Positions 1 through 17,123 of a DNA stretch of 34,538 nucleotides are shown here, piece after piece. This DNA comes from Phycisphaerae bacterium (GTDB lineage Bacteria; Planctomycetota; Phycisphaerae; Phycisphaerales; UBA1924), in contig JAEUJA010000063.1 of the NCBI GenBank assembly GCA_016793195.1, positions 1 through 34,538 on the forward strand, in the 5' to 3' direction. The position numbers were made by a program, and so were the translations under genes. Under the pieces are notes generated by a model that was not told where the DNA came from, searched no databases, and saw only the letters and a list, made by a program, of their open reading frames with translations. How positions within the stretch are numbered: the first letter of the stretch is position 1; each line of letters begins with the position of its first letter.

Positions 1-2777
1 ACGCGGCCAGGTCGGATGCGATCAAGTCGGACGCGGCCAAGAGCCGCCCGGTGGTGACTCCCAAGAGCGAGCCGCCCCCGCCGCCGCCAACACCGGCGCC
101 CCCGCCGATGCGGATGGAGGAGCCGCGGGTCGAGCCGGCGAAGGCCACGCCCGCGGAGCCGGCGCCCGCGCCGATGGCGGAGCGGCCGCCCTCGCGCCCG
201 CCCGCGCCACAGCCGGTGCCACAACCCACGCCGACTCCGGCTGCGATGGACGCGGACGTGACGCAGGACCTTCCGTCGCACGAGAGCGGCGTGGCGGCGG
301 TCGAGGCGTCGAAGTCGCGGGCGGCGTCGGGCGCGCCGGCCAAGACGCCGCCGGCGCCTGTCGAGGCGTCGATGGCGCGTTCGCGTCCGGCGTCGCTGTC
401 GAACGTGGGGCGAGTGTCGACGGCGAGCGTGGCGGGCGATGCGCCCAAGTCGTTCGAGGAGCTTGAGCGGGAATCCGAGCGCCGCAAGGCCGAGCCGAAG
501 AAGGCCGGCGCGGGCAAGTGGATCGGGATCGGCGTCGGCGCGGTGGGGTTGGTGGCGGTGGCGGCGATCGTGATCGCGAACCTGCCGAAGGATGATCCGA
601 AGAAGGATGGACGGATCGTCATCAACCCCCCCGAGCCCGAGCCGCCGAAGCCGAACCCGAGCCCAAACGTTGATCCTCCGATCGACGATGGGTCCAAGCC
701 GTCGGTGACGCCCGACCCCGACGCGGAACGGAAGGCCGAGGAAGCCCGCAAGCGGAAGGAGGCCGAGGAGGCCCGCAAGCTGAAGGAAGCCGAGGAGGCC
801 CGAAAGCGGAAGGAGGCCGAGGACGCCGCGGCCCGCGAGGAGGCGGAGCGCAAGACGCGGGAGGAGGCAGACCGAAAAGTCAAAGACGAGGCCGATCGGA
901 AGGCCGCGGCGGATCGCAAGGCGGAAGAGGACCAGAAGTCCGAGGACGCCCGCAAGGCAAGCGAGGCCGCGGCGCGTACCGCGGGCGAGCGGGCGGCGAA
1001 GGTGACGGCGGCGCGGGGCGCGCTGGGCGCGATCGCCGCGAACCTGGCGGCGGGTCTGGACGCGGGAGAAGTGCCGAGCGGCGGGCAGTCGATCCAGGCG
1101 CTGCTGGCGCTGGTGCCGGCGGACCTGGAGGCCGACGCGATCGGGAGCGACGCGGCGCTGCGCACGGCGTTGGCGCGGGCCCGGGGGCTGGGCGCGATCG
1201 CGTCGATCGCGGGCGCGGACGCGGCGGCCACTCGCGCGGCGGACGAGAGCAAAGCGGGGAACGCCTCCGGGTCGATCGCGGCGGGGCGGCGGGTGCTGGC
1301 GCTGGTGAAGGACGGCGCGCCCGGGGACCTGAACGCGGTCGAGTCGACGGGCGCGATCCTGGAGCGTGTGCGTGAGGCGGCCCGCGCGCTCCCCGACGCA
1401 GCCAAGGCCAAGCGCGACGCGCTGGCCAAAGACGCCGACGATCGCAGGCGGGCGTTGTTTGTCGCGGGCGTCAAGGGCGTGAAGGTGGACGACGCGGCGG
1501 CGATCCGCAAGGCGATGGCGATGGCGGCGGGGTTCGGCGCGACCGCCGAGGACATCCCGGCCAAGGCGCGCCTGAACCTGTTGGTGCTGGCATTGAAGGA
1601 TGACGTGGCCAAGGCGGGCGACGACGCGGCGGCCAAGGCGGCGGCGGACAAGTTCCGTGGCGGCGCGGGGGCGCTGGGCGCCGCGGTGGCGGCGGAAGTC
1701 GCGCCGATCGTGGCGGCGCTGGACGCGGCGGAAAAAGAACCCGCGCCGACCGGCGGCGGGAGCGTGAACTTTGCCACGGCGGGCCCGGGGAGCGCGGGCT
1801 GGAGCGCCAAGCCCGGCGCGGACGGCGCGTCGGTGGTGTATACGACCCCCTCGGGCCAGTCGATCGAGTTCATCCGCATCGCGGGGACCGAGACGTTCCT
1901 GTCGGCGTCGGAAGTTTCGATCGGGGTGTTCCGCGACGCGGCGTTTGGCAAGCCGACGATGACGCGCCTGGCCAAGCGGGCTGACCTGGTGGGACCGATC
2001 GGCTGGCAGCCCAAGGGCCAGGGTGACATCGAGCCGGCCCGGGGCAAGGGCGGGCGTGGCGGGGACAAGTTCGGGTGGTTGGAGACGGCGCCGGGGCTTC
2101 AGAACGCCGGGCAGGCGCCGTTTCCCGTGGAGCTTGAGCCAAAGATCGGCGCTCCGTCGGCGTCGCACCCGATGCAGCAGGTGTCGGCGCGGGTGGCGAG
2201 CGAGGCCGCCGCGGCGATCGGCTGCCGATTGCCCACGGCGTCGGAATGGTCGGCGGCGGCGGGGATGGGGCCCAAGGTCGATGGATCGGCGAACCGGCGA
2301 GACGCGGCGTGGAAGGCGATGCGCGACCACATGATCGGCGTGACGCAGGGCGCGGCCAAGCCTCGGTTCGACACGCTCCCGTGGCCCGACGACGGCGCGT
2401 TCGTGCCGACCGGCGTCAAGGTGCCGGTGCGCATGGACGCGGTGGAAGTTGATGGCGGGGACGACGGGACGGTGTGGTTCCGCACGGCCGCCTCGCCCGA
2501 TGGACGCTTCCATGACCTGGTGGGCAACGTGGCGGAATGGGTGCTGGCGCCCGGGGCGGCGGCGGGCCAGGCGCAGGTGATCGGCGGGTCGGCGATGTCG
2601 GCCAAGGAAGTGGCGGCGGACCAGGCGCAGCGGGCGACGGGCGCGGCGACGCAGGGCTACGCGGACGTTGGGTTCCGCCTGGCGTTCGAGGCGTCGGGTG
2701 GTGGGCCGGCGACGGCGTCGTTGCCGCTGGCGGGGCGGCTCAAAAACGCCGCCGACGCCCTTTCACTGCTGAAGTGA
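1..2777 (+). CDS. Membrane-anchored FGE-sulfatase-like protein, 5' partial (possibly the C-terminal part of a T6SS Ser/Thr kinase)
   Basis: The frame is open to the left edge (in frame from base 3), so the true start is probably outside; a GTG at 51 is the first possible start inside. Numbering from that GTG: a Pro/Ala-rich linker (about 1-155), one TM helix (about 157-177), a Pro-rich stretch, a charged coiled coil of repeated KEAEEARK-type units (about 225-312), an Ala-rich helical part, then an FGE-sulfatase/SUMF1-type fold (about 590-890). Its marks are RLPTASEW, RRDAAW, LVGNVAEW, VIGGSA and DVGFRLAF. No cysteine lies in the C-terminal catalytic segment of true FGEs, so a binding role is more likely than catalysis. 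A cytoplasmic head before a Pro-rich linker and TM is typical of Hanks-type kinases such as PpkA in T6SS loci. The kinase itself is not visible, so that name is inference. The 11266-14709 gene has a similar tail. Confidence 0.8.
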   Translation, partial: AARSDAIKSDAAKSRPVVTPKSEPPPPPPTPAPPPMRMEEPRVEPAKATPAEPAPAPMAERPPSRPPAPQPVPQPTPTPAAMDADVTQDLPSHESGVAAVEASKSRAASGAPAKTPPAPVEASMARSRPASLSNVGRVSTASVAGDAPKSFEELERESERRKAEPKKAGAGKWIGIGVGAVGLVAVAAIVIANLPKDDPKKDGRIVINPPEPEPPKPNPSPNVDPPIDDGSKPSVTPDPDAERKAEEARKRKEAEEARKLKEAEEARKRKEAEDAAAREEAERKTREEADRKVKDEADRKAAADRKAEEDQKSEDARKASEAAARTAGERAAKVTAARGALGAIAANLAAGLDAGEVPSGGQSIQALLALVPADLEADAIGSDAALRTALARARGLGAIASIAGADAAATRAADESKAGNASGSIAAGRRVLALVKDGAPGDLNAVESTGAILERVREAARALPDAAKAKRDALAKDADDRRRALFVAGVKGVKVDDAAAIRKAMAMAAGFGATAEDIPAKARLNLLVLALKDDVAKAGDDAAAKAAADKFRGGAGALGAAVAAEVAPIVAALDAAEKEPAPTGGGSVNFATAGPGSAGWSAKPGADGASVVYTTPSGQSIEFIRIAGTETFLSASEVSIGVFRDAAFGKPTMTRLAKRADLVGPIGWQPKGQGDIEPARGKGGRGGDKFGWLETAPGLQNAGQAPFPVELEPKIGAPSASHPMQQVSARVASEAAAAIGCRLPTASEWSAAAGMGPKVDGSANRRDAAWKAMRDHMIGVTQGAAKPRFDTLPWPDDGAFVPTGVKVPVRMDAVEVDGGDDGTVWFRTAASPDGRFHDLVGNVAEWVLAPGAAAGQAQVIGGSAMSAKEVAADQAQRATGAATQGYADVGFRLAFEASGGGPATASLPLAGRLKNAADALSLLK

Positions 2778-2824
2778 GCAAGGCGTCGGCGCTCTCTCCG
2801 ATCGTGGCGTCTCCGGGCGGCGCG

Positions 2825-3079
2825 CTAGTCGGCGTTTTGCTCATGGGCGCTGGCGGTCGAGGGCTGTGTTCGACCGGCGGGCGGCCTTTGATTCTGGTTG
2901 ATCGGGCGCTTGGCGCCGGGGTCGTCGACGAAGAGGTAGGTGCCGAAACGATCGCCGGCGCCGAAACCCTTCTCGCTTGTGTAGACGGCGGGGGATTGGT
3001 TGCCGGCGGAGCAGCCGGCGAGGGCCGCGACCAGCGTGAGGGCGGCGGGGACGAGAACCTTCCGGGGATTGAATTGCAT
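2825..3079 (-). CDS. Small lipoprotein, 84 aa, function unknown
   Basis: The only minus-strand gene I accept. ATG (complement of 3077-3079) is preceded by GGAGGAGT about 6 bases away, which decides this start over longer upstream readings in the same frame. The N-terminus is a classic lipoprotein signal: MQFNPRK, then a hydrophobic stretch ending in the lipobox L20-A21-G22-C23, with Ser at +2. The mature part is about 61 residues, Gly/Asp/Pro/Gln-rich, with GFGAGDRFGTYLFVDDPG as its most ordered piece and a low-complexity tail. I recognise no family. It converges on the FGE-like gene (47 bases between stops) and diverges from the T6SS operon at 3326. It is far shorter than the T6SS lipoprotein TssJ (about 150 aa or more) and shows no visible TssJ features, but a lipoprotein beside tssKLM is notable because no tssJ is present. 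Confidence 0.75.
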   Translation of the reverse strand: MQFNPRKVLVPAALTLVAALAGCSAGNQSPAVYTSEKGFGAGDRFGTYLFVDDPGAKRPINQNQRPPAGRTQPSTASAHEQNAD

Positions 3080-3254
3080 GGGACACTCCTCCGACACATG
3101 GGCGGTCGGTCGGGGGAAGGAATCGGCGGGCGCGGTGGTCGGGTCGCGGGTCGTGGCGCGGAAAATGCGTGATGGGACCCTGTGGGGCGCGGGTGGCGCG
3201 GTTTGCTGGAGTGGAGCGTGCGTGCGGGGTGGTCGCGGGGCGCGGGCGGGGCGG

Positions 3255-3285
3255 TTGCTCCGGGCGGGCGTGCGGTCTGTATGAT
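3255..3285 (+). promoter_or_regulatory. Candidate sigma70-type promoter for the tagH-like/tssKLM operon
   Basis: TTGCTC at 3255-3260 and TATGAT at 3280-3285 are separated by 19 bases, slightly long. TATGAT matches five of six bases of the -10 consensus and stands out in very GC-rich DNA. It would start transcription about 35 bases before the GTG at 3326. The alternative is that TATGATG is simply the ATG pair opening a longer version of the gene. Confidence 0.35.
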
Positions 3286-3325
3286 GGCGTCCGGTGTTTT
3301 CGGGCCGAGGGGCCCGGGGGGTTGT

Positions 3326-4267
3326 GTGCACGACGCTTCGAGCGAGGTTTCCCGCAAGGTGATGGCGCTGGTGGCGCGTCTGCGGCTGGTGCAGAGCCAG
3401 CTTTCGGACGAGTCCGTGGACGTTCGGCGCGAGCAGCTGGACGGGGAGATTTCGCGCGCCCTGCAATCGATCGCGTCGGGCGATCGCGAGGAGTTCCTGA
3501 AGGAATTGATGGGGGCGTTCCCGACCGCGGACGGCGCGGGGCGGAACGGGGCGGCGGGCGCGGCCGGGGCTGTCACGCAGACCAAGGTCGTCGAGGTCGT
3601 CAAGCCGCGCGAGCTGACGTTTGAAGAAATGGTGGACGGGCTGGTGAAGCAGTGGGGGCTGGCGACGCCGGAGCAGAAGGCCAAGGCGGCGGCGCGGTTG
3701 TCGCAGTCGGGGGTGGCGCCCGCGGGGGGCGGGGCGGGGCTCTCCGAGGCGCAGGTGTCGAAGCTGCGGGACAAGCTGGCGTTCGGGGTCGGCGAGATGC
3801 CCGACGCGGCGCGGGTCGCGGAGCTGTCGGTGGCGATGTTCGAGTTTGCGATGGGCGTCGACAACCTGGTGTGGGGCATGTGGTCCAAGAAGCTGGCGCC
3901 CAACTCGCCCCTGCGGCGCAACGGCACGCTCCAGCGGTTCCTCCGCGACTATGTCACGGGCAAGGGCGAGCTGGCGGGCGGCGGGCCGGTCGCGCCCGAG
4001 GTCCGTCGCCTGCTCCAGATGGCCATCGCGGTGGTGAGTTCGATCGGGCAGGCGGGGACGGCGTTCGGCGAGAAGTATGTGTCGCAGCTCTCGCCCGGCG
4101 CGATCGAGGACGGCATCGGCGACTCGGCGTTCCGCAGCAAGGACGCGGATTGCTGGAAGGCCTACAAGCTCCGGGCCGGTTCGCTGGACCGCCAGGCGAT
4201 CGACGGGGAGATCACGCAGGCGATCGCGCGGTTCGTCGAGGATTGGATGAAGAAGGCCGGGTTGTAG
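3326..4267 (+). CDS. T6SS-associated protein upstream of tssK; possible TagH C-terminal-like protein without FHA domain
   Basis: 313 residues from GTG 3326, which has a G-rich stretch about 5 bases upstream; ATG 3362 and ATG 3281/3284 are alternatives. There is no signal peptide or TM, so it should be cytoplasmic. The N-terminal third is charged and helical, followed by an Ala/Gly-rich linker. The C-terminal half (about 150-313) is well ordered, with MFEFAMGVDNLVWGMW, NSPLRRNGTLQRFLRDY and a final segment with DCWKAYKLRAGSL and FVEDWMKK. This pattern of a 'NPL' helix, a loop, and a final 'W..Y' helix reminds me of the C-terminal domain of the T6SS FHA protein TagH. TagH commonly sits just before tssJ/tssK, so position agrees. 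No FHA domain is present. The family call is tentative; that the gene is real is secure from its codon use and the tssK gene 74 bases downstream. Confidence 0.6.
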   Translation: MHDASSEVSRKVMALVARLRLVQSQLSDESVDVRREQLDGEISRALQSIASGDREEFLKELMGAFPTADGAGRNGAAGAAGAVTQTKVVEVVKPRELTFEEMVDGLVKQWGLATPEQKAKAAARLSQSGVAPAGGGAGLSEAQVSKLRDKLAFGVGEMPDAARVAELSVAMFEFAMGVDNLVWGMWSKKLAPNSPLRRNGTLQRFLRDYVTGKGELAGGGPVAPEVRRLLQMAIAVVSSIGQAGTAFGEKYVSQLSPGAIEDGIGDSAFRSKDADCWKAYKLRAGSLDRQAIDGEITQAIARFVEDWMKKAGL

Positions 4268-4341
4268 CGGGTCTGGATCGGGTTTGCACGGGCTTTGTCG
4301 CGGGGATCGGCGCGGGACGCGCTTTGACGATGGGAGTCCAG

Positions 4342-5751
4342 ATGGCCAAGGGAACGGCGCAGACGCAGGTCGGTTCGCTCAGCCCCGTGCACTGGCACGA
4401 GGGGCTGTTTCTCCAGCCGCACCACCTGCAGGTGACGGCCCGCCAGGGCGAGGAGCGCTTCGGGCGCGAGCGCCGCCTGGGCTGGTCGCACCCCTACGGC
4501 GTGGTGGACATGAAGCTCTCGGTCGACTCGCTGGAGAACCTGACGGTGCGCTTCGAGCGCCTGCGGGCGGTGATGCCCAGCGGGCTGGAGGTGGATGTTC
4601 CCGAGACCACCGACCTGCCGGGGCTGGACATCAAGAAAATCTTCGCGGGCACCAGCGGCGCGTTCACGGTGTCCTTGGCGGTGCCCCTGTGGCAGGCGGC
4701 CCGCGGCAACACGGTCGACCCCTCGTCTGGGGCGGCGGGCTCGCAGGTCAAGCGCCTGTACAACGTGTCGGAGGCGACGCGCCCCGACGAGAACACGGGC
4801 GAGAACAAGCAGGCGATGCTGGTGCGCCGCGTCAACGCGCGCCTGGTCGTCGAGGGCGACGACGTGAGCGACATGGAGGTGCTCCCCCTGGTGCGGATCG
4901 CGCACGCCACCGGAGACGACATCGGGCGCCCGCAGCAGGACAAGACCTATGTCCCGCCGTGCCTGGTGCTGGGCGGGTCGGGGGCGCTGCTCAACCTGGT
5001 GCGGGACCTTGGGAACCAGCTGGAGACCACCCGGCGCGAGGGCGTGATCGAGCTGACCCGAGGCGGGTTCTCGATCGAGAACCTGCGCGGCATCCAGTAT
5101 GAGCAGATGCTCCGGCTGCGCACGCTCAACGTGTACGCGGCGCGGATCGCGTCGCTGGCGGGCGTGCCGGGCGTGACGCCGTTCGAGATGTACCTGGAGA
5201 TGCGCGGGTGCCTGGGCGAATTGGCGGCGTTGTCGCCGGACCGCGACCCGTGGGAGGCGCCCAAGTACGACCACGACAACCCGGGGATCGCGATCTTCGA
5301 GCTGGACCGCAAGATCCGCCAACTCCTGGCGCGCGGGACCGTGGCCAAGTTTGTGAAGGTCGCGTTCGCCAAGGACGGCGCGGTGCTGGCCGCCAACCTC
5401 GAGGACAAGCACATCACCCAGCCCAACGAGTATTTCCTGGGCATCAAGACCAAGATGGACCCGATGGAGTTGGCCAAGCTGGTGGAGGACGCGGACAAGT
5501 TCAAGCTCATGCCGCGGAGCATGGAGCGGCTGATGATCTACGGCGTGCGGTTGGCGGAGGAGCGTCACCCGCCGTACGAACTGCCGGCGCAGGTGGGGCT
5601 GAACTATTTCCGCCTGCTCCGGGCCGAGAGCAAGAGCATGTGGGAGCGGATCGCGGCAGAGAAGAAGGTGGCGATCCGCTGGCCGGAGAACGAGAAGTTC
5701 GAGTTCACGGAAGTGCACTTGTACATGACGGTTCCGGGCGAAGCGACGTGA
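4342..5751 (+). CDS. tssK: TssK, T6SS baseplate protein (ImpJ/VasE family)
   Basis: 469 residues from ATG 4342, the usual length for TssK. GGGAG at 4332-4336 sits 5 bases before this ATG, favouring it over the in-frame ATG at 4330. The family signature is near the N-terminus: V-H-W-H-E-G-L-F-L-Q-P-H-H-L-Q, followed by FGRERRLGWSHPYGV. Typical later parts include RLMIYGVRLAEERHPPYELPAQVGLNYFRL and a C-terminal segment with FEFTEVHLYMTVPG. In studied systems TssK is a trimeric cytoplasmic adaptor joining the baseplate (TssE/F/G) to the membrane complex through TssL and TssM. It is followed by tssL after 127 bases and then tssM, the usual order K-L-M. Confidence 0.95.
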   Translation: MAKGTAQTQVGSLSPVHWHEGLFLQPHHLQVTARQGEERFGRERRLGWSHPYGVVDMKLSVDSLENLTVRFERLRAVMPSGLEVDVPETTDLPGLDIKKIFAGTSGAFTVSLAVPLWQAARGNTVDPSSGAAGSQVKRLYNVSEATRPDENTGENKQAMLVRRVNARLVVEGDDVSDMEVLPLVRIAHATGDDIGRPQQDKTYVPPCLVLGGSGALLNLVRDLGNQLETTRREGVIELTRGGFSIENLRGIQYEQMLRLRTLNVYAARIASLAGVPGVTPFEMYLEMRGCLGELAALSPDRDPWEAPKYDHDNPGIAIFELDRKIRQLLARGTVAKFVKVAFAKDGAVLAANLEDKHITQPNEYFLGIKTKMDPMELAKLVEDADKFKLMPRSMERLMIYGVRLAEERHPPYELPAQVGLNYFRLLRAESKSMWERIAAEKKVAIRWPENEKFEFTEVHLYMTVPGEAT

Positions 5752-5878
5752 GGCGCGGAGAAAGTCCGGCGGGGGGTGCGCCGCGGGGCGGGCCCCGTGT
5801 CTTTCTTGCTTTCTGGTCCTGGGACAGATCGGGTGGGTGAAGCGGGCGCGCCAAGGCGGCGGCCCGACGGGAGGATCG

Positions 5879-6586
5879 ATGGCGACGCTCGTGGAGACCT
5901 GTGAGCCTTTGTTCCAGTACATCTGCCGCCTGAACCGGCTGGGTCGCAAGGGCGGGCTGGTGGACGCCGGGCAGGTGCGGAGCGAGCTGCGCTCGATGCT
6001 GTCGGAGGTGAAGCTGCGGGCCGAGGGCTCGGGGCTGGGCGAGCAATTCGCCAAGGTGCGCCTGCCTCTGATTTATTTCGTGGACTTCATGGTGCGTGAG
6101 AGCGCGCTGCCGTTCGCGCGGACGTGGAAGCACCTGCAGGAAGAAGAGCTGAAGCGGATCGCGGGCGATCAGGATTTCTTCGTGCAGCTCGACGAGACCC
6201 TGAGCGAGCAGGGCGAGGCGGCCAACCAGCGGCTGGCGGTGTTCTACAGCTGCCTGGCGCTGGGGTTCACGGGCATGTACACGGGCCAGGCGGACGGGCC
6301 GATGTTCCTGCGCAAGAAGATGCTGGAGATCGCGGCCCGCATCCGCCCCATGATGGACGCGGAGGAGAACTCGCGGATCTGCCCCGAGGCGTACCAGAAG
6401 GTCGACACGCGCGAGCTTGAGATCGCGGCGGCGCCGGGCGTCTTGCGCTGGGTCGTGGTGCTGGCGATCATGGTGGTGGCGCTCCTGGCGGCCAACTGGA
6501 TCGGATACCGAGAGGCCACCGACACCATCGGGCAGGCCCTGGACGGGATCAAGAACAACACCGCGTCGGCGGAGGCGGCCAAGTAG
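5879..6586 (+). CDS. tssL: TssL, T6SS inner-membrane protein (DotU/ImpK family)
   Basis: 235 residues from ATG 5879, with GGGAGG about 5 bases upstream; GTG 5837 in frame has no comparable site. The protein is a helical cytoplasmic domain with DotU-family features (PLIYFVDFMVRESALPF, ETLSEQGEAANQRLAVFYSCLALGFTGMY) followed by one C-terminal TM helix (about 191-211) and a short tail of about 24 residues. This is the tail-anchored topology of TssL. There is no OmpA-like peptidoglycan-binding extension, so another protein must anchor the complex to the wall, if it is anchored. TssL dimerises, and together with TssM and TssJ forms the trans-envelope complex that docks the TssK-bearing baseplate. 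It lies 89 bases upstream of tssM. Confidence 0.93.
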   Translation: MATLVETCEPLFQYICRLNRLGRKGGLVDAGQVRSELRSMLSEVKLRAEGSGLGEQFAKVRLPLIYFVDFMVRESALPFARTWKHLQEEELKRIAGDQDFFVQLDETLSEQGEAANQRLAVFYSCLALGFTGMYTGQADGPMFLRKKMLEIAARIRPMMDAEENSRICPEAYQKVDTRELEIAAAPGVLRWVVVLAIMVVALLAANWIGYREATDTIGQALDGIKNNTASAEAAK

Positions 6587-6675: not shown

Positions 6676-9600
6676 ATGGATTCGATGCTGGTCATGGCGT
6701 GGATGCTGGCGCAGAGCGGCGGGCTCTCGAGCGTCCTGAAGTTCTTCGGGCTCTCGCCCAAGATGCTCCTCATCATCGTGATCGGCCTGGTGGTCGCGAT
6801 CGCCGCGTGGTGGCTGGTCAAGTTCATCTACAAGCACCGCGAGAAGGCCAAGGAACTGACGCTGGTGCGGCGCATGTTCGCGTCGACTTCGGGCGGTCCG
6901 GCGGCGGGCGCGGACCCGGCCAAGCGGGCGGCGATCGACGGGATGCGGCGCTCGTTCGAGGAGGGCGTGGAGAAGTTCCGGGCCGCGGGCAAGAACGTGT
7001 ACACGCTCCCGTGGGTGCTCTTGGCGGGCCCGTCGGGCTCGGGGAAGACCGAGGCGATCCGCCACTGCAACGTGGGATTCCCGCCGGGGCTTCAGAACTA
7101 TCTCCAGGGCGCGGGCGGCACGCTCAACATGCACTGGTGGTTCACCAACGACGCGGTCATCATCGACACCGCCGGGCGAATCTTCATGGAGAACGCCGGC
7201 ACGGGCGGCGGCGAGGAGTGGCGCGAGCTGCTCAAGATGCTCAAGGACGTCCGGCCCCTGTGCCCGATCAACGGGATGCTCCTGTGCATCGGCGTCGACA
7301 GCCTCATCAAGGACTCGGGCGACGACATCCAGGAGAAGGCCGGAAAGATCGCCCAGCAGCTCGACACCATCCAGCGCATGCTCGACGTGCGCTTCCCGGT
7401 CTTCGTGGTCGTCACCAAGTGCGACCTCATCACCGGCTTCCGCGAGTTCTTTGAGAACGTCACCGACCCCGGGCTCCAGCACCAGATGCTGGGCTGGTCC
7501 AACCCCGCGGCCCTGGACACGGTCTTCAACCCCGAGCAGGTCTCCGAGCACATCGAGACGGTGCGCCAGCGCCTGCTCCGGCGTCGCTACGCGCTCATGA
7601 TCGACCCGGTCCACACCGACGACCCCCAGGCGAGGCGCACGGACCAGGTCGACGCGCTCTACGCCCTCCCCGACAGCCTGGCGCGGTTGTCGTCGCGCCT
7701 CCGGCGCTACCTCGAGCTCATCTTCGTGCAGGGCGAGTGGTCGCCCAAGCCCCTGTTCCTCCGCGGCATCTACTTCACCTCGTCCATGCGCCAGGGCGCC
7801 GAGCTCGACGAGGAACTCGCCAAAATGCTGGGCGTCAGCGTCGACAAGCTCCCGGGCGGCGTGTCCGAGGAAAAGTCCTACTTCCTCCGCGACGTCTTCA
7901 AGGAAAAAATCTTCAAGGAGAAGGGGCTCGTCACCCGCGCCACCAACGTCGACAAGCACCAGGCGCGCCAGCGCCGCGTCGTCGTCGGCTCGGCGATCGG
8001 CGCGGCGGTGCTCTTGCTTGGCCTCACGCTCCTGTCGTCGTACTCGTTCCGCCAGGAAGTCGGCAAGAAGGAAGAGTCGTGGCGGACGATCTGGGGGCGG
8101 ATGGGCGACCTGTCGCCCCTGGGCCTGGGCGGCGCGGCTCCGGCGTACCGCGATCAGAAGGACGTGAAGATCGGGCTCGACGACCTGACGCGCACGGGCG
8201 CGGTGGTGCTGTCGCGCCAATTGGCCGAGCAGCCGCCCAGCGTGCCGCTCCTCCTGAAGCCCGTCGATCTCCTGGGCGTCTTGGGGCGTGGCGGCGACTT
8301 TGAGGCGCGCCTGAAGGGCGCGTCGACGGCGCTGATCGAGCGCGAGGTGGCGGCCAAGCTGGTCGAACAGGCCCGGGCCCGCATGACCCGCGACCTGAAG
8401 GAAGGCAAGCCCTGGAGCGACGAGGCCACCGCCGTGCTGGCCGGGCTCGTCCGCATCGAACGCGGCGAGGTCGGGCCCGCGCAGCCCGTTCCCTTCGATG
8501 TCGACGCCTTCGCGCGCTATGTGCTGGCCAAGGACGAATACGCCAAGGCCGGCGGCGAGGCCAAGCAGCTCCAGGAGCTGGTCACCTGGGCCTACGCCAA
8601 GGACCAGGGCGGCGGCGAGTGGCCAGGAGCCGAAGGGTCGCTGGGACGCGACGCCAACCTCGTCAAGGCCGGCGTGGCGGCGTTCAACGCCCACTGGTCC
8701 AGCGCGCTGGCGAGCGACCCGGCGCTGGGCAAGCTCGTCGCGCTCCGCGACAAGGCCGGGGCGTTCGAGACCGCCGAGCAGGCGCTGCTCTCGGGCGCTG
8801 ATCCGGTGATCGTCAAGACGCTGGCGGAAGGCGACGGGTCCTACGCCCGCTTCGAGAAGTCCTGGAGCGAGAAGTTCGGCGCGATCAAGTCGGCGCACGA
8901 CGAGCTGGACGCGGCCCGCAAGGCCGCCGACTTTGGAAAGCCCGACGCACTTGCCAAGACACTGGAGGCGGCGCGGACGAGTCTGATCGCCAAGGCGAGC
9001 GCGGCGTACGCGACGGTGCTCGACGAGGCCGCCCCCGAGGGCGCGCCGGGGGCGCTGCTCCCGACGGGCGTGAGCTCGACCACGGACAAGGTGGCGGGCC
9101 AGGTCAACCGCGCCGGCGAGGCGGCCGGCAAGGCGATCGACGCGCTGGGCATCGGTTCCAAGGACTGGGCGGGCGACCTCAAGGCCCGCCAGCAGGAGAT
9201 GAAGGACGCGCGCGGCAAGCTGGCGACGGCGATCGGCGCCGAGATCGACAAGCTCAAAGCCCAGTTGGACGAGAAGAGCAAGTCGGGCGGCGTGCTGGCG
9301 TCGCGCCCGAGCGATGATTTCGAGTTCGCGGCCCGCTTCCGCGCCTACGCCGCCGCCGACGGCGCCGTCCGCGCCTCGGCCCCTCCCGCCGGCGACACCA
9401 AGCCAAAGTGGGGAGAGCTCACGACCGCGGAGAAGGCCCGCGTCAACACGTTCGGGGCGGCCCGGACCGCGATCCAGAAGGACTTCGCCCAGGCCGGCGA
9501 CGCGGCGTCCGCCGGGACCGGCGCGGGCAAGGCCTGGCAGGTGGTGGGGCTGGCCGAGAAGGCGGCCCGCACCCGCGCGGTGGCGTCGGCGCTCGAGGGC

Positions 9601-11163
9601 ACTTCGGGCGACGCGGGCTGGGTCAAGGACCGCGTGCGCGACCTTTCCAAGGCGCTCCCCGCGGGCGTTGAGGCGCGGGTCGACAAGCGGCTGTTCAAGG
9701 GCAAGCTCGATCTGCCCGGCGCGCCCTTGGCGTCGGCGTCGTCGACCGAGCTGTTCGACCCCAACGGGGCCGCGATGGTGCTCGACGATTTCAAGTTCGC
9801 CAAGACCGACGCGGCGGCGCGATTCCTGAGCGACTCCGGCGTGGGCGCCAAGCTCGACGCGGCCGAGGTCGCGGTGAAGGGCTACGCGGGCGAGTATTTC
9901 ACGGCGTGGACGCAAACGACCATCGGGAACGCCGCGCCCCGCTTCGAGAGTTGGGACGCGGCCCGCGACGCCGCGGGCAAGCTGGGGCTCGGCTCGTCCG
10001 ACTGGTCGCAGAAGCTGGCCGACCTCGAGGCCTTGATGATCGTGGCGCTCGACATCCCCGGGCTGGACCTGGCCCTTGGGGCCCGCGCCGAATCGCTGAA
10101 GCAGTGGCAGCAGAAGCTCGGCGCCGACCGCGACGCCCTCAACAACTCGGGCTCCTCGCTCCGCGTCGACGTGCCCAACGCGGTGGGCCAGAAGTTCGCG
10201 GCCCTGGCGGGCAGCCCGGTCGAGGCACGGCGTCAGATCGGCAATATGGCCGCCACGGATTTCGCCAAAGGCTACTTTGCCAGCTTTGATCCCAAGGTGC
10301 TCGAGGGCGGCGTGCAAGGGGTGGGCGAGTCGTACTGGTCGCTGGCGCGCTTCGAGATGCTCCGCGTGCTGGCCGAGACCTATGCGAATCACCCCGATCG
10401 CGTGCGCTTCGACCAGGCCAAGCAGTTCCCGCTGTATTTCGACGGGGCGGCCCTGGGCGGCGGCAAGCTCTCCAAGGAGCGCGTGCAGAAGATCATCGAC
10501 GCGCTCCCCGCCAGCGCCAACGCGGCGGCCGGCGGGACGCGCGTGCAGGACGGCGCCAAGACCGGCATCGTCCGCGTCGATGAGCAGCTCGACGAGCTGT
10601 TCAAGGCCGATCCGTTCCTGGCCGGGAAGCAGGAGCTCGTCGCGTCGCTCCGCGCCTGGGGCGGGTGGCTCTTGGCCGACAAGACGGTCAGCGTGGTCGC
10701 GCTGGCGGACCACGGGTATGTCTCCGACAAGGCGAGCGAGCAGCTGCGCTCGCCCGCCGGCGCTCAGGCCGCCATCGGCGGGGCGATCTTCACCGAGTTG
10801 AAGATGAACGGCGTGACGGTCGGCATCACCAACGAGGGCACCGAGCTCATCACGGGCATGGGCGTTCCTTCGTCGGATGTCGGCAAGCTCAAGGTGGACA
10901 TGAAGGGCGGGGCGGCCAACCAGACCGGGACGTGGGCGCCGTCGAGCGAATGGGGCGCGCTGGAATTGCTGTGCCAGAACGGCGCCGAGCCCGCCGACGC
11001 GAGCTGGAAGCCGCTGGCCGACGCCAACGCCCCGAGCAAGTTCTGGCGTGTGCCGGTCTTCTTCACCGACGCGGGCGGCAAGGCCTACTTCGTCCGCGTC
11101 GGGCTCAGGTTCAGTGTGGACGTGCCGGCCCGGGCCCTGTGGCCCCAGGGCGGGAAGTGGTGA
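6676..11163 (+). CDS. tssM: TssM, T6SS inner-membrane complex protein (IcmF/VasK family)
   Basis: 1495 residues from ATG 6676, with AGGAAG 6 bases upstream. An N-terminal TM helix (about 30-52) leads to a cytoplasmic GTPase-like domain with an intact Walker A motif GPSGSGKT (118-125) and a Walker B-like VIIDTAGR (161-168). A VVTKCDLITGF segment resembles an NKxD motif. A second TM (about 435-458) is followed by a very long, Ala/Lys/Asp-rich periplasmic part of about 1000 residues. The C-terminal beta-rich end has KVDMKGGAANQTGTWAPSS and FFTDAGGKAYFVRVGLRFSV. TssM usually spans about 1100-1300 residues, so this one is long, with the extra length in the Ala-rich helical periplasmic part. TssM bridges the inner membrane to the outer-membrane lipoprotein TssJ, which is not found here. 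Confidence 0.95.
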   Translation: MDSMLVMAWMLAQSGGLSSVLKFFGLSPKMLLIIVIGLVVAIAAWWLVKFIYKHREKAKELTLVRRMFASTSGGPAAGADPAKRAAIDGMRRSFEEGVEKFRAAGKNVYTLPWVLLAGPSGSGKTEAIRHCNVGFPPGLQNYLQGAGGTLNMHWWFTNDAVIIDTAGRIFMENAGTGGGEEWRELLKMLKDVRPLCPINGMLLCIGVDSLIKDSGDDIQEKAGKIAQQLDTIQRMLDVRFPVFVVVTKCDLITGFREFFENVTDPGLQHQMLGWSNPAALDTVFNPEQVSEHIETVRQRLLRRRYALMIDPVHTDDPQARRTDQVDALYALPDSLARLSSRLRRYLELIFVQGEWSPKPLFLRGIYFTSSMRQGAELDEELAKMLGVSVDKLPGGVSEEKSYFLRDVFKEKIFKEKGLVTRATNVDKHQARQRRVVVGSAIGAAVLLLGLTLLSSYSFRQEVGKKEESWRTIWGRMGDLSPLGLGGAAPAYRDQKDVKIGLDDLTRTGAVVLSRQLAEQPPSVPLLLKPVDLLGVLGRGGDFEARLKGASTALIEREVAAKLVEQARARMTRDLKEGKPWSDEATAVLAGLVRIERGEVGPAQPVPFDVDAFARYVLAKDEYAKAGGEAKQLQELVTWAYAKDQGGGEWPGAEGSLGRDANLVKAGVAAFNAHWSSALASDPALGKLVALRDKAGAFETAEQALLSGADPVIVKTLAEGDGSYARFEKSWSEKFGAIKSAHDELDAARKAADFGKPDALAKTLEAARTSLIAKASAAYATVLDEAAPEGAPGALLPTGVSSTTDKVAGQVNRAGEAAGKAIDALGIGSKDWAGDLKARQQEMKDARGKLATAIGAEIDKLKAQLDEKSKSGGVLASRPSDDFEFAARFRAYAAADGAVRASAPPAGDTKPKWGELTTAEKARVNTFGAARTAIQKDFAQAGDAASAGTGAGKAWQVVGLAEKAARTRAVASALEGTSGDAGWVKDRVRDLSKALPAGVEARVDKRLFKGKLDLPGAPLASASSTELFDPNGAAMVLDDFKFAKTDAAARFLSDSGVGAKLDAAEVAVKGYAGEYFTAWTQTTIGNAAPRFESWDAARDAAGKLGLGSSDWSQKLADLEALMIVALDIPGLDLALGARAESLKQWQQKLGADRDALNNSGSSLRVDVPNAVGQKFAALAGSPVEARRQIGNMAATDFAKGYFASFDPKVLEGGVQGVGESYWSLARFEMLRVLAETYANHPDRVRFDQAKQFPLYFDGAALGGGKLSKERVQKIIDALPASANAAAGGTRVQDGAKTGIVRVDEQLDELFKADPFLAGKQELVASLRAWGGWLLADKTVSVVALADHGYVSDKASEQLRSPAGAQAAIGGAIFTELKMNGVTVGITNEGTELITGMGVPSSDVGKLKVDMKGGAANQTGTWAPSSEWGALELLCQNGAEPADASWKPLADANAPSKFWRVPVFFTDAGGKAYFVRVGLRFSVDVPARALWPQGGKW

Positions 11164-11265: not shown

Positions 11266-14200
11266 ATGGCCATCCAAGGCAAGCCTCAGCTTTTTCTCGC
11301 GGTGTTCGGCAAGCACCCGGGCTGGGACGATCACATCGACGACCTGGGCATCGAGACCAAGCGCCTCGCCGAGGTCAAGCGCGTGATGTACGAGGAGTGC
11401 ATCGCCGGCAACATCGACTCGGGCTCGTGGGAGGCGCTGGACGATTCGGCGCGCCTCGCCGCCTTTGCGCACGAGTTCGTGTGGAGAAGTCCGGGCGGGC
11501 TCGTGGTCGGGCGCTTGTGGTCAAGCAAGGACGGCAAGGGGCGCAGCAAGTATCCGATGGTGGTGGTCGCGCAGTGCGACAACGTGCCGACGCCGTTCCT
11601 GGCGTCGCAGGTGATGCCGGCGCTGGCGGGCCTGCAGGAGCGGTTCCAAGCCGCCGTGAGCGCGGGCGAGGTGATCCAGGCCGCCGCCGACGCGCGCTCG
11701 CGGTTGCGCGAGGCGCTGGCGGGCGCCGGCGCCGGCCCGGGCGATGCGTTCGTCGCGCCGCCCAAGGAGCTGGCGTCGACGCTGGCGGGCGCGGGGCTGA
11801 GCGGCGATTCGGTGGCGATGCAGCGGGTGATGTACGAGATCGACCGCGAGATGGCGCCGTTCCGCCCGATCGGAAAGGGTGACGGGAAGAAGAGCACGCG
11901 ATTGATCGACGCGCGGGCCCAGCACCTGCGCGTGCCGATGATCGGCGTCACCAGCCTCGACGCGGCCAGATTCTGGATGGGCGTGCTGGCGCGCGAGGTC
12001 GATGGCGGCGTCTCGCAGATCACGCTGGTGCCCCTGGCGCCCGCGGGCGAGATCGGCTTTGCCGACCTGGTCGTGGGCGACCCCGGCCCGCCGCAATTGT
12101 TCTGCCTGCGCGCCGGCGGCAAGGCCCTGGCCCCCGCCAGCGACGTGCCCTACACGATGACGCCCGATTTCATGGCGCGCTGCAAGGCGACGGTGGCGGC
12201 GTGGTCGGGCGAGGTGGTCAAGGCGCCCGAGCCCGCCGCGCCCAAGCCTCCCGCGCCACAGGCCGCGAGCCCGACGCCGGAAGCCCAGGGCTCGCCCGCG
12301 CCGAACCCGGCGCCCGCGGCGAACGCTCCGGCGAAGAAGAAGTTCCCGTGGTTCCTGCCGGTGGCGGCGGTGGTGGTGGTGGGCGGCGCGCTGGCGGCGT
12401 GGCGACCTTGGGAAGAAACGAAGCCCAACATCGCGATGAGCGACAAGCCCGCCAACGAGAAGCCGATCACGCCGCCCGAGGCCAAACCATCTGAAGTCAA
12501 GCCACCCGAGGCAAAGCCCGATCCCGCGGCCGAGGCACGCAAGGTCGAGGAGGCGCGCAAGCTCGAAGAAGCCCGAAAGGCCGAGGAGGCTCGCAAGGTC
12601 GAGGAAGCGCGCAAGGCCAAGGAAGAGGCGGACCGCAAGACCAAAGAAGAGGCCGAGCGCAAGCTGAAAGAGGACGCGGACCGCAAGGCCAAGGAAGAGG
12701 CCGATCGCGTCGCCCGGGATGAGGCCGATCGCAAGGCCAAGGACGAGGCGGCTCGGAAGGCCAAGGAAGACGCGGATCGCGTCGCGCGCGAGGAGGCAGA
12801 GCGTAAGACCCGGGACGAGGCCGAGCGCAAGGCCAAGGAAGAGGCGGCCCGGAAGGTCAAGGAAGAATCCGATCGCAAGGCCAAGGACGAGGCGGATCGG
12901 AAGGCCAAGGAGGCCGCCGCCCGCACCGCCGCCGAGGTCGAGAAGCAGCGCGACGATCTGCGGCGTCAGTTCATCCAGCTCGATTCGCTTCTGCAGCAGG
13001 CGTTCGTGGTCGGCGAGAAGACCGCCGACGGCTCGAGCGTCGACGCGATCTTCGCCAAGGTCAGTGCCAACCCCGAATTCGCCGCGTTCCGCGACGCGAC
13101 GCCCGCGGCCCGCGAAACACTCGAACGCATCGAGGCGCTCCGGGCCATCCCCGCCAGCTCCAACGCCGGCGAATTGGCGGCCCACGCGACCGGCGCCAGG
13201 CTCGCCGAGCAGATCGCGGCCTGGTCGCGCCTGGCCTCGGGCGCGGCGAGCTGGCCCGCCAACGCCACCGACCTCAAGGGCGCCGCCGCCACGGTCGCCA
13301 CCATGGAGACGTCCACCAACGACGTGGGCGGCGAGCGCGGCGCGCTGCTCAAGAAGCGCGTGCTCGCCGACGCGGCAAAGATCTGGACGCGCTACGCCGC
13401 GGCCCAGACCAGCGCCGAGTCTCTTCTCGAGGCCGAGTCCTACCGCGACGACTTCCGCGTCAAGCCCGGCGATCTCCCCGCGCCGGTCAGGTACAACATT
13501 GAGATCGCCAAGCTCCGGCGCGACGCCGCAGCGTTCAAGAACGACGCGGGCGATGACGCGCTCCGCGCGCGCCTCGCCGCCTTTGTCGCCGGCGCGGGCG
13601 AAACCAAGGGCGCCGGCCTGGACGCGGTTCGATCGCTCCTGAGCGCCACCGCGTCCGCCGGCGTCGATCCGACCAAGAGCGGCCCGGGCGCCAAGGGCTG
13701 GCGCGCCGAGGTCCGCGACAACGGGCAGGTTGTCGCCTTTACCCTCACCGGCGTCAACCGCCCGGCGCGCACGCTCGAATTCGCCCGTCTCGAAATCGGC
13801 GGCGTGACGTCGTACCTGGCGACCACCGAGGCCTCGATCGGGCTGCTCGTCGACGCCGCCGACAACGCCCAGGCCTGGCCCGACGTGCTGGGCGTGCTCC
13901 CGCCCGCGTCGCGGAGCGAGCAGGTGACGTGGGTGCGCGGCTGGGAATGGAAGATGACGGGCAAGCAGGCGACCGCCATTCAGCCCGCCACCAACGCGCG
14001 CGATTGGACCGCCGGCTGGTTCGCCGTCGCCAACTTTGGCTCCATGACCAGCGCCAAGAAAGAGATGTATCCAAGCGGCCCGCGCCCCGCGTCGCCCACC
14101 GCCGAAACGCCCATGCAGTATCTCTCGGTGGGGGCGGCGGCGTATGTCGCCGGGCTCGCCGGATGCAGGCTTCCAACCGCCGCGGAATGGGCGGCGGCGT

Positions 14201-14709
14201 CGGCGGACGCGGGTGGAACGCCCAACCTCCGCGACGCGGCGTGGAAGAAGGTCTTTGACCAGTGCCGCCCCATCGTGCAGGCGCCCAAGCCCTACGACGG
14301 CGTCTTTGCCGGCGAGGTGAAGGCCGCCGACGTCGCGCCCGCCGTCACGACCGACGACGGCGTGGTGTGGTTCACGGAGGTCGGCGCCGGCCCCGGCTCG
14401 CGATTCAAGAACCTGATCGGCAACGTCGCCGAGTTTGTCACCACCGTCCCGGTCGATCCGGTGGCGAGCCGTGCCGAAGCGGCGAAGGTTTCCGAGTTCG
14501 GGCGCGTCATCGGCGCGTCGGCGCTCTCGCCGTCCAAGGTCGATGCGGCGACGCCCATGACCATCGCACGCGGCAGCGCGGGCTTCGAGTTCAGCGACGT
14601 GGGCTTCCGCCTGGCGTTCACCGCCGGGGCGGCGGCCAAGCCGGTCCCCATCACCCACGCCGCGTTCCAATCCGCGGTTCAGGGGCTGCAATTCGCGGGG
14701 AGCAAGTGA
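11266..14709 (+). CDS. TagF/ImpM-like protein fused to TM, coiled coil and FGE-sulfatase-like domain
   Basis: 1147 residues from ATG 11266; ATG 11230 is in frame but has no ribosome site. The N-terminal head (about 1-320) has FGKHPGWDDHIDDLG and, further on, VVGRLWSSKDGKGRSKYPMVVV. These resemble the GKxPxxGDF start and the GR.FP core of TagF (ImpM), a cytoplasmic post-translational repressor of T6SS in other bacteria. A Pro/Ala linker, one TM helix (about 360-382) and a long KAKEEADRK-type coiled coil (about 422-565) follow. The helical stretch then leads to an FGE/SUMF1-like fold (about 809-1125) with GCRLPTAAEW, NLRDAAW, LIGNVAEF, VIGASA and DVGFRLAF. The C-terminal catalytic cysteines of FGE are absent. 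The tail parallels that of the 1-2777 gene. Position right after tssM is common for tagF. Membrane and periplasmic fusion of TagF is unusual; the head's name is the least certain part. Confidence 0.75.
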   Translation: MAIQGKPQLFLAVFGKHPGWDDHIDDLGIETKRLAEVKRVMYEECIAGNIDSGSWEALDDSARLAAFAHEFVWRSPGGLVVGRLWSSKDGKGRSKYPMVVVAQCDNVPTPFLASQVMPALAGLQERFQAAVSAGEVIQAAADARSRLREALAGAGAGPGDAFVAPPKELASTLAGAGLSGDSVAMQRVMYEIDREMAPFRPIGKGDGKKSTRLIDARAQHLRVPMIGVTSLDAARFWMGVLAREVDGGVSQITLVPLAPAGEIGFADLVVGDPGPPQLFCLRAGGKALAPASDVPYTMTPDFMARCKATVAAWSGEVVKAPEPAAPKPPAPQAASPTPEAQGSPAPNPAPAANAPAKKKFPWFLPVAAVVVVGGALAAWRPWEETKPNIAMSDKPANEKPITPPEAKPSEVKPPEAKPDPAAEARKVEEARKLEEARKAEEARKVEEARKAKEEADRKTKEEAERKLKEDADRKAKEEADRVARDEADRKAKDEAARKAKEDADRVAREEAERKTRDEAERKAKEEAARKVKEESDRKAKDEADRKAKEAAARTAAEVEKQRDDLRRQFIQLDSLLQQAFVVGEKTADGSSVDAIFAKVSANPEFAAFRDATPAARETLERIEALRAIPASSNAGELAAHATGARLAEQIAAWSRLASGAASWPANATDLKGAAATVATMETSTNDVGGERGALLKKRVLADAAKIWTRYAAAQTSAESLLEAESYRDDFRVKPGDLPAPVRYNIEIAKLRRDAAAFKNDAGDDALRARLAAFVAGAGETKGAGLDAVRSLLSATASAGVDPTKSGPGAKGWRAEVRDNGQVVAFTLTGVNRPARTLEFARLEIGGVTSYLATTEASIGLLVDAADNAQAWPDVLGVLPPASRSEQVTWVRGWEWKMTGKQATAIQPATNARDWTAGWFAVANFGSMTSAKKEMYPSGPRPASPTAETPMQYLSVGAAAYVAGLAGCRLPTAAEWAAASADAGGTPNLRDAAWKKVFDQCRPIVQAPKPYDGVFAGEVKAADVAPAVTTDDGVVWFTEVGAGPGSRFKNLIGNVAEFVTTVPVDPVASRAEAAKVSEFGRVIGASALSPSKVDAATPMTIARGSAGFEFSDVGFRLAFTAGAAAKPVPITHAAFQSAVQGLQFAGSK

Positions 14710-14813: not shown

Positions 14814-14971
14814 GGCCTGTGATTTGGTGCCGTGGAGGTCCTTCTTGACCTTTCCGGGAAGAACGGGGTCGTGGTCATTGAGCGGGCGTGGCGGTGCGGT
14901 TTGACGGCGTCGGCCGCCTCGGGGCGGGGTTGTCGAATCGGCGTGGCGGTGCCCGAGAGCGAGGAACGCGA

Positions 14972-16963
14972 ATGGGTCGTGCGCGCGAGGATCGGAAATT
15001 CGGCGTGATGGGTTTCGGCGGCGCGTGGGTGCTGGCGATGTGCGCGGGGATGGCGGCGGGCGTGCGGGCCCAGGACGCCCAACCGCCGGCCCAACCCCCG
15101 GTTGATCCCCCGGAGGCCAAGGCCCCCGAAGGAAAGGCTGAGGACGCCGGGGTGTTCGTGAAGGTCGACGACGCCGCGGCGGACAGCCGCGTGTACCCGA
15201 TCTCGCGCGTGCTGATCGTGCACGGGCGCGACCACGCCGGCCAGCCCGACCTTCAGGACGAGCGATTCCAGAACCTGACGGTGCGGCTGGGCAAGACCCC
15301 CGAGGGGTACGCCGCCGCGGGCACGGGCGACGCGGTCACGCTGAAGCTGGCCGACCTGACCGAGGGCTCGGGCGGCATGTTCCGCAAGAGCGCCATCGAG
15401 GCGATCGCCGGGGCCATCGTCGGCGAATTGAACCGGCGCGGGGTGTACGGCGTGCACGTGGCGCCCAGCGACGAGGACATCAACGAAGACACCGGCGAGG
15501 ACATGCGCGACGGGCGCACCGCCCTGGTGTTTGTCGTCTACACCGCGATCGTCAAGGACGTGCGGACCATCGCCAGGGGCGAGCGCTTCGAGGGCGAGCA
15601 ATCGATCAACCACCCGGCCCACGCCAACGTGCGGGCCCGCAGCCCGGTGGTGCCCGGCTCGCTCCTGCGCAAGGACAAGCTCGACGACTACGCCTACCAG
15701 CTCAAGCGCCACCCCGGGCGCGTGGTCGACATCGCGGTCTCGGCCGCCGACGAGGAGGGCGGGGCCCAGGTCGATTACCTCGTGGGCGAGAACAAGCCCT
15801 GGACGCTGTACTTCCAGATCTCGAACACGGGCACCAAGAACACCGAGGACTGGCGCGAGCGATTCGGCTTCACCCACAACCAGCTGACGAATCACGACGA
15901 CATCCTGCAATTGGAGTACTCGACCGCGGGGTTTGATTCCTCGCACGCGATCACGCCCAGCTACGAGTTCCCGCTCCTCTCGAACAAGCTGCGGGCCAAG
16001 GTGTACGGCTCGTGGACCGACTTCACCGCGTCGGACGTGGGCCTGAGCGAGGCCAAGTTCACCGGCGACGGGTGGAGCCTGGGCGGCGAGCTGGCGTGGA
16101 ACGTGGCGCAGTGGGGCCCGGCGTTCCTGGACCTGGTGGGCGGCGCCCGCTGGCAGAACGTGCACATCCGCAACGAGACCGACCCGATCAACGTGATCGA
16201 GGGCGAGGACGACTTCTTCATGCCGTATGTCGGGGCGCGCCTGACCCGCGACACCAACTTCGCGCGCACCTATGCCGAGGCGCTGGTCGAGTTCAACGTC
16301 TCGGGCATGGCGGGCACGGAGGAGGCGGAAATCGGGAACATGGGCCGCTCGAACCCCGACGATGAATTCGCGGTGTTCCGCTGGGACCTGACGCAGTCGC
16401 TGTTCATCGAGCCGCTCTTCAACCCGCGCGGGGGGACGGCGGACGGCAAGGGCATGACGTTGGCGCACGAGCTGGTGGGGAGTTTCCGCGGGCAAAACGC
16501 GCTGGGCTCGCGCCTGGTGCCGACGTTCGAGGCCGTCGCCGGCGGGTTCTACAGCGTGCGCGGCTACCCGGAGTCGGTGGTGGCGGGCGACAACTCGGTC
16601 GTCGCCAGCTTCGAGTATCGCTTCCACATCCCCAACGCCTTCACGGCGCGCGAGCCCACGCGGCTCTTCGGGCGCGACTTCCGCGCCACGCCCCAGACGC
16701 CGTACTACGGCACGGCGGACTGGGACCTGATCGCCAAGGCGTTCATCGACGTCGGGCGGGTGACCAACAACGACCGCCTGTCGTTCGAGAACGACGAGAC
16801 GCTGGTGGGCGCGGGTCTCGGCCTTGAGCTCCAGGTGCTGCGGAACGTCAACGTCCGCGCCGACTGGGGCGTGGCGATGGAGGAAGTGAACAAGGAGGGC
16901 GGCGGGGAGTTCGTCTCCGACGGGAGCAGCCGCTTCCACCTCTCGTTCACGCTGCTGTTCTAG
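14972..16963 (+). CDS. TpsB-type outer-membrane transporter (ShlB/FhaC-like, Omp85 superfamily)
   Basis: 663 residues from ATG 14972, with GAGGAA about 5 bases upstream. A signal peptide ends near AGVRA-QD, followed by a Pro/Ala-rich linker. A periplasmic POTRA-like part (about 60-280) includes VYPISRVLIVHG and the helix KSAIEAIAGAIVGELNRRGVYGV. A beta-barrel then starts around LYFQISNTGTKNTEDWRERFG. The Omp85 L6 motif VRGY is at 529-532 (FYSVRGYPES), and the protein ends in FHLSFTLLF, a typical terminal-Phe beta-signal. This family inserts in the outer membrane and exports a partner exoprotein with a TPS domain, which is encoded 160 bases downstream. Finding such a pair between a tagF-like gene and tssA is unusual. 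It could transport something other than its neighbour, but the pairing is the simplest reading. Confidence 0.9.
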   Translation: MGRAREDRKFGVMGFGGAWVLAMCAGMAAGVRAQDAQPPAQPPVDPPEAKAPEGKAEDAGVFVKVDDAAADSRVYPISRVLIVHGRDHAGQPDLQDERFQNLTVRLGKTPEGYAAAGTGDAVTLKLADLTEGSGGMFRKSAIEAIAGAIVGELNRRGVYGVHVAPSDEDINEDTGEDMRDGRTALVFVVYTAIVKDVRTIARGERFEGEQSINHPAHANVRARSPVVPGSLLRKDKLDDYAYQLKRHPGRVVDIAVSAADEEGGAQVDYLVGENKPWTLYFQISNTGTKNTEDWRERFGFTHNQLTNHDDILQLEYSTAGFDSSHAITPSYEFPLLSNKLRAKVYGSWTDFTASDVGLSEAKFTGDGWSLGGELAWNVAQWGPAFLDLVGGARWQNVHIRNETDPINVIEGEDDFFMPYVGARLTRDTNFARTYAEALVEFNVSGMAGTEEAEIGNMGRSNPDDEFAVFRWDLTQSLFIEPLFNPRGGTADGKGMTLAHELVGSFRGQNALGSRLVPTFEAVAGGFYSVRGYPESVVAGDNSVVASFEYRFHIPNAFTAREPTRLFGRDFRATPQTPYYGTADWDLIAKAFIDVGRVTNNDRLSFENDETLVGAGLGLELQVLRNVNVRADWGVAMEEVNKEGGGEFVSDGSSRFHLSFTLLF

Positions 16964-17008
16964 TTCGGGGAGAGGGGCGTCGCGGGCGATGGCCCGGGCG
17001 CGGGTCCT

Positions 17009-17068
17009 CGCGACTGGGTTTCACGCGACTGGGTTTCACGCGACTGGGTTCCACGCGATTTGGTTCGA
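17009..17068 (+). repeat. 15-bp tandem repeat upstream of tpsA
   Basis: Two perfect copies of CGCGACTGGGTTTCA (17009-17023, 17024-17038), a third with one change (17039-17053, ending TTCCA) and a degenerate fourth (17054-17068). The array lies in the 160-base tpsB-tpsA gap, about 55 bases before the tpsA start. It could be a protein-binding array, an RNA element, or a simple slippage repeat. Confidence 0.85.
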
Positions 17069-17123
17069 TCGGGATGATGCACACGAGCCGGGGCGAGGAT
17101 GCCCGGGCGACACGAGGTTTGCC

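Follow-up and report, generated by a model that had tools for sequence, protein, structure and literature searches.

How can one secretion operon come to hold two membrane proteins that differ in their heads and yet resemble each other in nearly everything behind them? The question is raised by a window at the start of contig C96 (genome G000, Phycisphaerales), its first 34538 bases, in which core genes of a type VI secretion system (T6SS) are flanked by gene 1, cut by the contig end at which the window starts, and gene 2. In both genes the parts follow in the order that the original prediction had described: a linker, a transmembrane (TM) helix, a charged KAEEARK-type helix, Ala-rich helices and a domain like formylglycine-generating enzyme (FGE). 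As set out below, the tails of the two proteins are homologous, the head of gene 1 in related genomes is by its residues a pseudokinase, and that of gene 2 is assigned to the T6SS repressor TagF from a structural model and a motif. Whether the two are inner-membrane regulators that work as a matched pair in the Phycisphaerales T6SS, one a scaffold that says go and the other a brake that says stop, is in our judgment an even call.

One kind of tail on two proteins

Downstream of the charged helix the two tails can be aligned over their whole length, with a Smith-Waterman score of 441 against 67 +/- 10 for shuffled sequences (Z about 36), and thus they are homologous, as had been anticipated. 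Most of this signal comes from the FGE part, which alone scores 352 (shuffles 49 +/- 9), while the helical part alone gives a weak 96 (54 +/- 9). Pfam FGE-sulfatase is above its cut-off of 23.3 bits in both tails (26.0 and 25.6), and a profile of 19 tails compared with the PDB retrieves FGE and its relatives with a best E of 2e-8. After the GGS motif, 38 of 40 tail segments have no cysteine and the other two have a single one, never a pair. Judged by these sequence features, the tails belong to the FGE family and are without its catalytic cysteine pair. TagR of Pseudomonas aeruginosa is itself FGE-like. Since each protein has one predicted TM helix whose N-terminal side is basic, both tails are probably periplasmic.

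What, then, is the KAEEARK stretch? It had been called a coiled coil, and this label turned out to be wrong. In gene 2 its 147 residues contain 76 opposite-charge pairs at i/i+4 spacing and 9 strongly hydrophobic residues with no heptad bias, and it scores as TolA-like, below the cut-off of that family; its composition is that of a charged single helix. Pairing of the two proteins through their coils, which had also been proposed, is unlikely because there are no heptads and because the segment is absent from most members: of the kinase-type proteins 4 in 31 have it, of the TagF-type 4 in 32, and one partner alone has it in G002 (TagF type) and G414 (kinase type). A spacer across the periplasm would fit the charged helix better than a pairing device.

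A kinase fold on one head and TagF on the other

Open for 924 amino acids between base 3 and its stop at 2777, gene 1 has no start in the window, and its 5' part falls outside the assembly, base 1 of the window being base 1 of the contig. The state of the head in G000 therefore has to be taken from two congeners. A kinase fragment on another contig (C271, L025) was considered as the missing head and rejected, for it has an amidase-like open reading frame (ORF) upstream and matches no head of the cluster. Relatives were located via TssK and their loci were compared; in eight of them a protein with an N-terminal head, a TM helix (weak in G016), further helices and this kind of tail is encoded upstream of the TssK region, and orthologues in the same operon position include L038:10599-14186 and L040:5948-10141. 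A profile of these eight heads matched 191 PDB sequences, with StkP as the best (E 7e-8), and the best 60 of the 191 are essentially all kinases or kinase-like. Most blocks of the head have predicted local distance difference test (pLDDT) values close to 90 or higher in the full-length model of a congener's protein (L066), whose residues 1-260 can be aligned with kinase structures at Z of about 20, the rows of this comparison being taken up by the kinase head so that the FGE-like and helical parts are barely covered. The head of gene 1 in the relatives, both congeners included, has the Hanks-type kinase fold, and orthology supports the same fold for G000. It is to be noted that profile and structure were needed for this, as Pfam and NCBIfam scans of the gene 1-type head gave no kinase match above cut-off.

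The original prediction had guessed that the unseen head is a PpkA-type kinase. The guess holds for the fold and fails at the catalytic residue, since the Asp of the HRD motif is lost in 38 of 39 heads, where it is replaced by N (18 heads), R (9), or A, M, E, G or Q. The residue after the DFG Asp is Pro in 35 of the 39, by which DFG becomes DP in most. Other kinase residues are kept more often, namely the beta3 Lys in 29, the catalytic-loop Asn in 32 and the DFG Asp in 33. From these residues, the head in the relatives is read as a pseudokinase and not as an active kinase of the PpkA type.

The second head had been described as TagF-like, and this is borne out. Foldseek with a model of it retrieves 9t0n (TagF of A. 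baylyi, E 6.3e-7) and then 6iz8 and 2qnu (both near 6e-4), all of them crystal structures of TagF. G15/K16, D22 and S87/D89/R93 are invariant in 10 aligned TagF-type heads, the S-x-D-x3-R spacing is as published, and the pattern occurs in 30 of 32 sequences. G15/K16 and S87/D89/R93 correspond to the GK and S-D-R residues that TagF needs for binding Fha in two bacteria (PMC5995506), and D22 stands at the place of D29. D51 and W55 are invariant as well, at a spacing different from that of the D44/W46 (DW) motif. In single-sequence scans at E 0.1 or 1 the head has no TagF match in Pfam or NCBIfam, which divergence can explain, and a profile of these heads finds nothing relevant among PDB sequences. 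On modelled structure and motif, we assign the head of gene 2 to TagF (DUF2094). The gene directly follows that for TssM, as does the TagF gene in Serratia marcescens, where TagF represses the formation of TssL foci (PMC6082577).

Distribution, tail history and the locus

The pseudokinase head was found in 38 of 201 genomes of the order, and all 38 also carry a TagF-like head and TssM. By their listed positions, 29 of them have pseudokinase and TagF on the same contig, no more than about 15 kb apart; among the other nine some are split between contigs, and in G499 and G496 the two are far apart on one contig. TagF-like heads are rare in a sample of the phylum (5 of 343 genomes), and named relatives are mostly Phycisphaerales or Phycisphaerae metagenome-assembled genomes. 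Judged by open-frame length, TagF bears a tail in about 16 of the 38 genomes. Tails on both proteins were seen in 15 compared genomes. These include G524, whose TagF-type gene (L184) appears split, the FGE tail being in a headless ORF and the head match having an in-frame TGA.

How did the two tails come to be alike? An approximately unbiased (AU) test on 25 rows rejects the TagF-type tails as one clade (p 0.013), which speaks against a single ancient duplication of the tail. When row and column effects are removed, tails of the same genome are more alike than expected (0 of 200,000 permutations in 20 genomes with both), and in six genomes with composition correction the same-genome pairing is the best of 720. 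A simple ancient duplication followed by independent descent predicts no such excess. In a tree of 40 rows, the tails of close relatives mostly group by protein type, kinase-type tails together and TagF-type tails together, and one pair from a single genome is well supported (G372, 96/91). Because this larger tree shows mostly two paralogous lineages, widespread gene conversion is not claimed. Our reading is that the tails duplicated long ago and have since undergone some exchange or been held by a shared constraint; shared mutational bias may have added to their likeness.

The features of the locus are collected in the table below. Between gene 1 and TssK, about 1.5 kb (2778-4340) has no clear coding frame or Pfam match; a short gene that escaped recognition or a regulatory region may lie here. 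At 14888-28115, with the TagF gene before them and further T6SS genes after them, the T6SS operon also encodes a ShlB-type two-partner transporter and a 3708-residue protein with a two-partner secretion domain, both of which are conserved in relatives. In about 30 loci a protein of about 660 residues (L038:7801-9789 in G001) has homologues upstream of the pseudokinase, its coding region preceding those of a TssJ-like lipoprotein and the pseudokinase. It has no match in Pfam, PDB or kinase-profile searches, and the idea that it is a second pseudokinase was dropped after profile comparison gave nothing. The TssJ-like lipoprotein (L038:9935-10453), kept in many loci, is so called from its position and a lipobox-like start, being without a Pfam match.

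Table. Features of genes 1 and 2 and of the core T6SS genes between them (positions in the window)
Feature	Position	Strand	Basis or remark
Gene 1, 3' part (P0002)	1..2777	+	Head cut off at contig start; orthologues with predicted N-terminal pseudokinase
Gene 1 Pro-rich cytoplasmic linker	60..497	+	Sequence
Gene 1 TM helix IGIGVGAVGLVAVAAIVIA	522..578	+	Hydropathy; P0002 residues 174-192
Gene 1 charged single-helix segment, KAEEARK type	720..1007	+	One long helix in orthologue's model
Gene 1 Ala-rich helical domain	1008..1757	+	Confident helices in orthologue's model; tail comparison
Gene 1 predicted FGE-like domain, no catalytic Cys pair	1776..2687	+	Pfam, PDB profile, Cys count
TssK, approximate start	4340..5751	+	PF05936, E 1.6e-61
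TssL/DotU	5837..6586	+	PF09850; true start probably 3' of 5837
TssM/IcmF	6676..11163	+	PF14331
Gene 2 (P0001): putative TagF head, TM helix and tail	11266..14709	+	1147 amino acids
Gene 2 putative TagF head	11266..12204	+	AlphaFold model, pLDDT 85; Foldseek top matches 9t0n, 6iz8, 2qnu
Gene 2 TM helix	12343..12399	+	P0001 residues 360-378
Gene 2 charged single-helix segment	12520..12960	+	TolA-like score below cut-off
Gene 2 Ala-rich helical domain	12961..13620	+	Tail comparison
Gene 2 predicted FGE-like domain, no catalytic Cys pair	13633..14628	+	Pfam, PDB profile, Cys count

A possible go/stop pair and its relation to known systems

In T6SS control as it has been studied, PpkA, once activated by TagQ/TagR, phosphorylates Fha or TssL, a step that PppA undoes, and TagF inhibits (PMC10482370), while in S. 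marcescens PpkA is activated by RtkS (PMC6082577). This standard phosphorylation loop is not evident here, because VI_FHA has no match above cut-off in 10 genomes and PP2C_2 was found in one of the ten and is absent from nine, other phosphatase families not having been searched. We read the two proteins as a variant form of the PpkA/TagR-TagF control layer: a pseudokinase would stand where PpkA does elsewhere, and both arms would carry matched periplasmic modules. A phosphorylation-independent trigger, that is, a nucleotide-binding pseudokinase and a TagF brake that read one envelope signal through a shared periplasmic sensor co-evolving within each genome, is a tentative proposal that we would sooner doubt than assert. 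According to it, two transmembrane receptors would act on the TssJLM complex. The tails in the periplasm might bind the same envelope or cell-wall cue, in the manner of TagQ/TagR or RtkS upstream of PpkA. The TagF head, tethered beside TssLM, could block assembly of the membrane complex, and the pseudokinase head, probably nucleotide-bound, may serve as a scaffold that on the signal relieves TagF or recruits the baseplate or TssL without phosphotransfer. As both proteins carry the same sensor, one periplasmic partner might be bound by both together or by either in competition, from which go and stop would follow out of one signal.

Several observations weigh against the matched pair. A search of the whole G000 genome at E <= 1e-20 found no head for gene 1, and Fha, the known partner of TagF, is not in the locus. 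One head, L069, retains the HRD Asp, having lost the DFG Asp. Some kinases without a canonical motif are active, so that loss of the Asp is no proof of inactivity. Half or more of the genomes have TagF without a tail, and matched tails are therefore not obligatory. The same-genome excess is modest and could partly come from shared substitution bias, and the 40-row tree groups the tails mostly by protein type. The original prediction had the activating and repressing arms carry matched periplasmic modules; the same-genome similarity lends this some support, and it stays conjectural.

Could the tails be structural and sense nothing? PorK of the type IX secretion system (T9SS) is an FGE fold repurposed without its two catalytic cysteines as an assembly hub (PMC12421860), and the tail profile also matches PorK/GldK weakly (E 0.027), so that an inactive FGE fold might here be the scaffold of an envelope complex. 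We consider this unlikely, as the heads are of regulator type and TagF bears the tail in only about 16 of 38 genomes, so that the tail on TagF is not essential to the machine. A smaller chance, though a real one, is given to an unusual but active kinase in gene 1, a divergent PpkA that phosphorylates TssL or a forkhead-associated (FHA) protein encoded elsewhere and leaves the ordinary Thr-phosphorylation pathway in place. Its nucleotide-binding residues are mostly kept, FHA-domain proteins below the VI_FHA cut-off occur elsewhere in these genomes, and PpkA of Vibrio alginolyticus and Agrobacterium tumefaciens acts on TssL (PMC10482370); the near-universal replacement of the catalytic Asp, the change of DFG to DP and the scarcity of PP2C_2 speak against it. 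That the tails are immunity domains neutralising incoming effectors in the periplasm, with the heads alone regulating, is the most improbable, for they are parts of regulators encoded within the core TssK-L-M operon and not beside a recognised effector, and are conserved across families of the order in fusion with assembly-control heads.

What would a matched go/stop pair mean? In the studied Proteobacteria, periplasmic sensor, kinase and TagF are each a protein of their own. Here both arms have a sensor-like domain attached covalently, which names a physical link from envelope signal to switch and makes it testable. If true, a pseudokinase conserved where PpkA would be expected would put a kinase fold to use as a scaffold for controlling the T6SS, in a phylum other than that in which the pathway was established. 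In a literature search with subscription journals mostly outside its reach, the arrangement of matched tails on a pseudokinase and TagF was not described.

Among known systems, PDB entries of FGE domains named as kinases (5nxl, 7spq) suggest from their names that kinase/FGE-like fusions exist in other bacteria, with no T6SS link shown, while the kinase here is degenerate. Like the tails, PorK/GldK belongs to a secretion machine and has an FGE-like fold that lacks the catalytic cysteines, but it is a component of an outer-membrane ring and not a transmembrane regulator (PMC12421860). In A. tumefaciens TagF is likewise joined to another part of the regulatory layer, there to the phosphatase PppA and here to a TM helix and a periplasmic FGE-like tail (PMC5995506). 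S. marcescens also has a periplasmic activator of the kinase arm and a TagF next to TssM that acts on the membrane complex, though its RtkS is a separate protein and its PpkA is active (PMC6082577). Closest in layout is the H1-T6SS of P. aeruginosa, where TagQRST-PpkA-Fha-PppA and TagF likewise combine a kinase-fold membrane protein, a TagF brake and a periplasmic sensor layer (PMC10482370, PMC6657622). The Phycisphaerales locus differs from it in that no Fha or PppA was found there, in that its kinase is by its residues a pseudokinase, and in that its sensor-like domain is, by fusion, a part of the kinase-like protein and of TagF alike.
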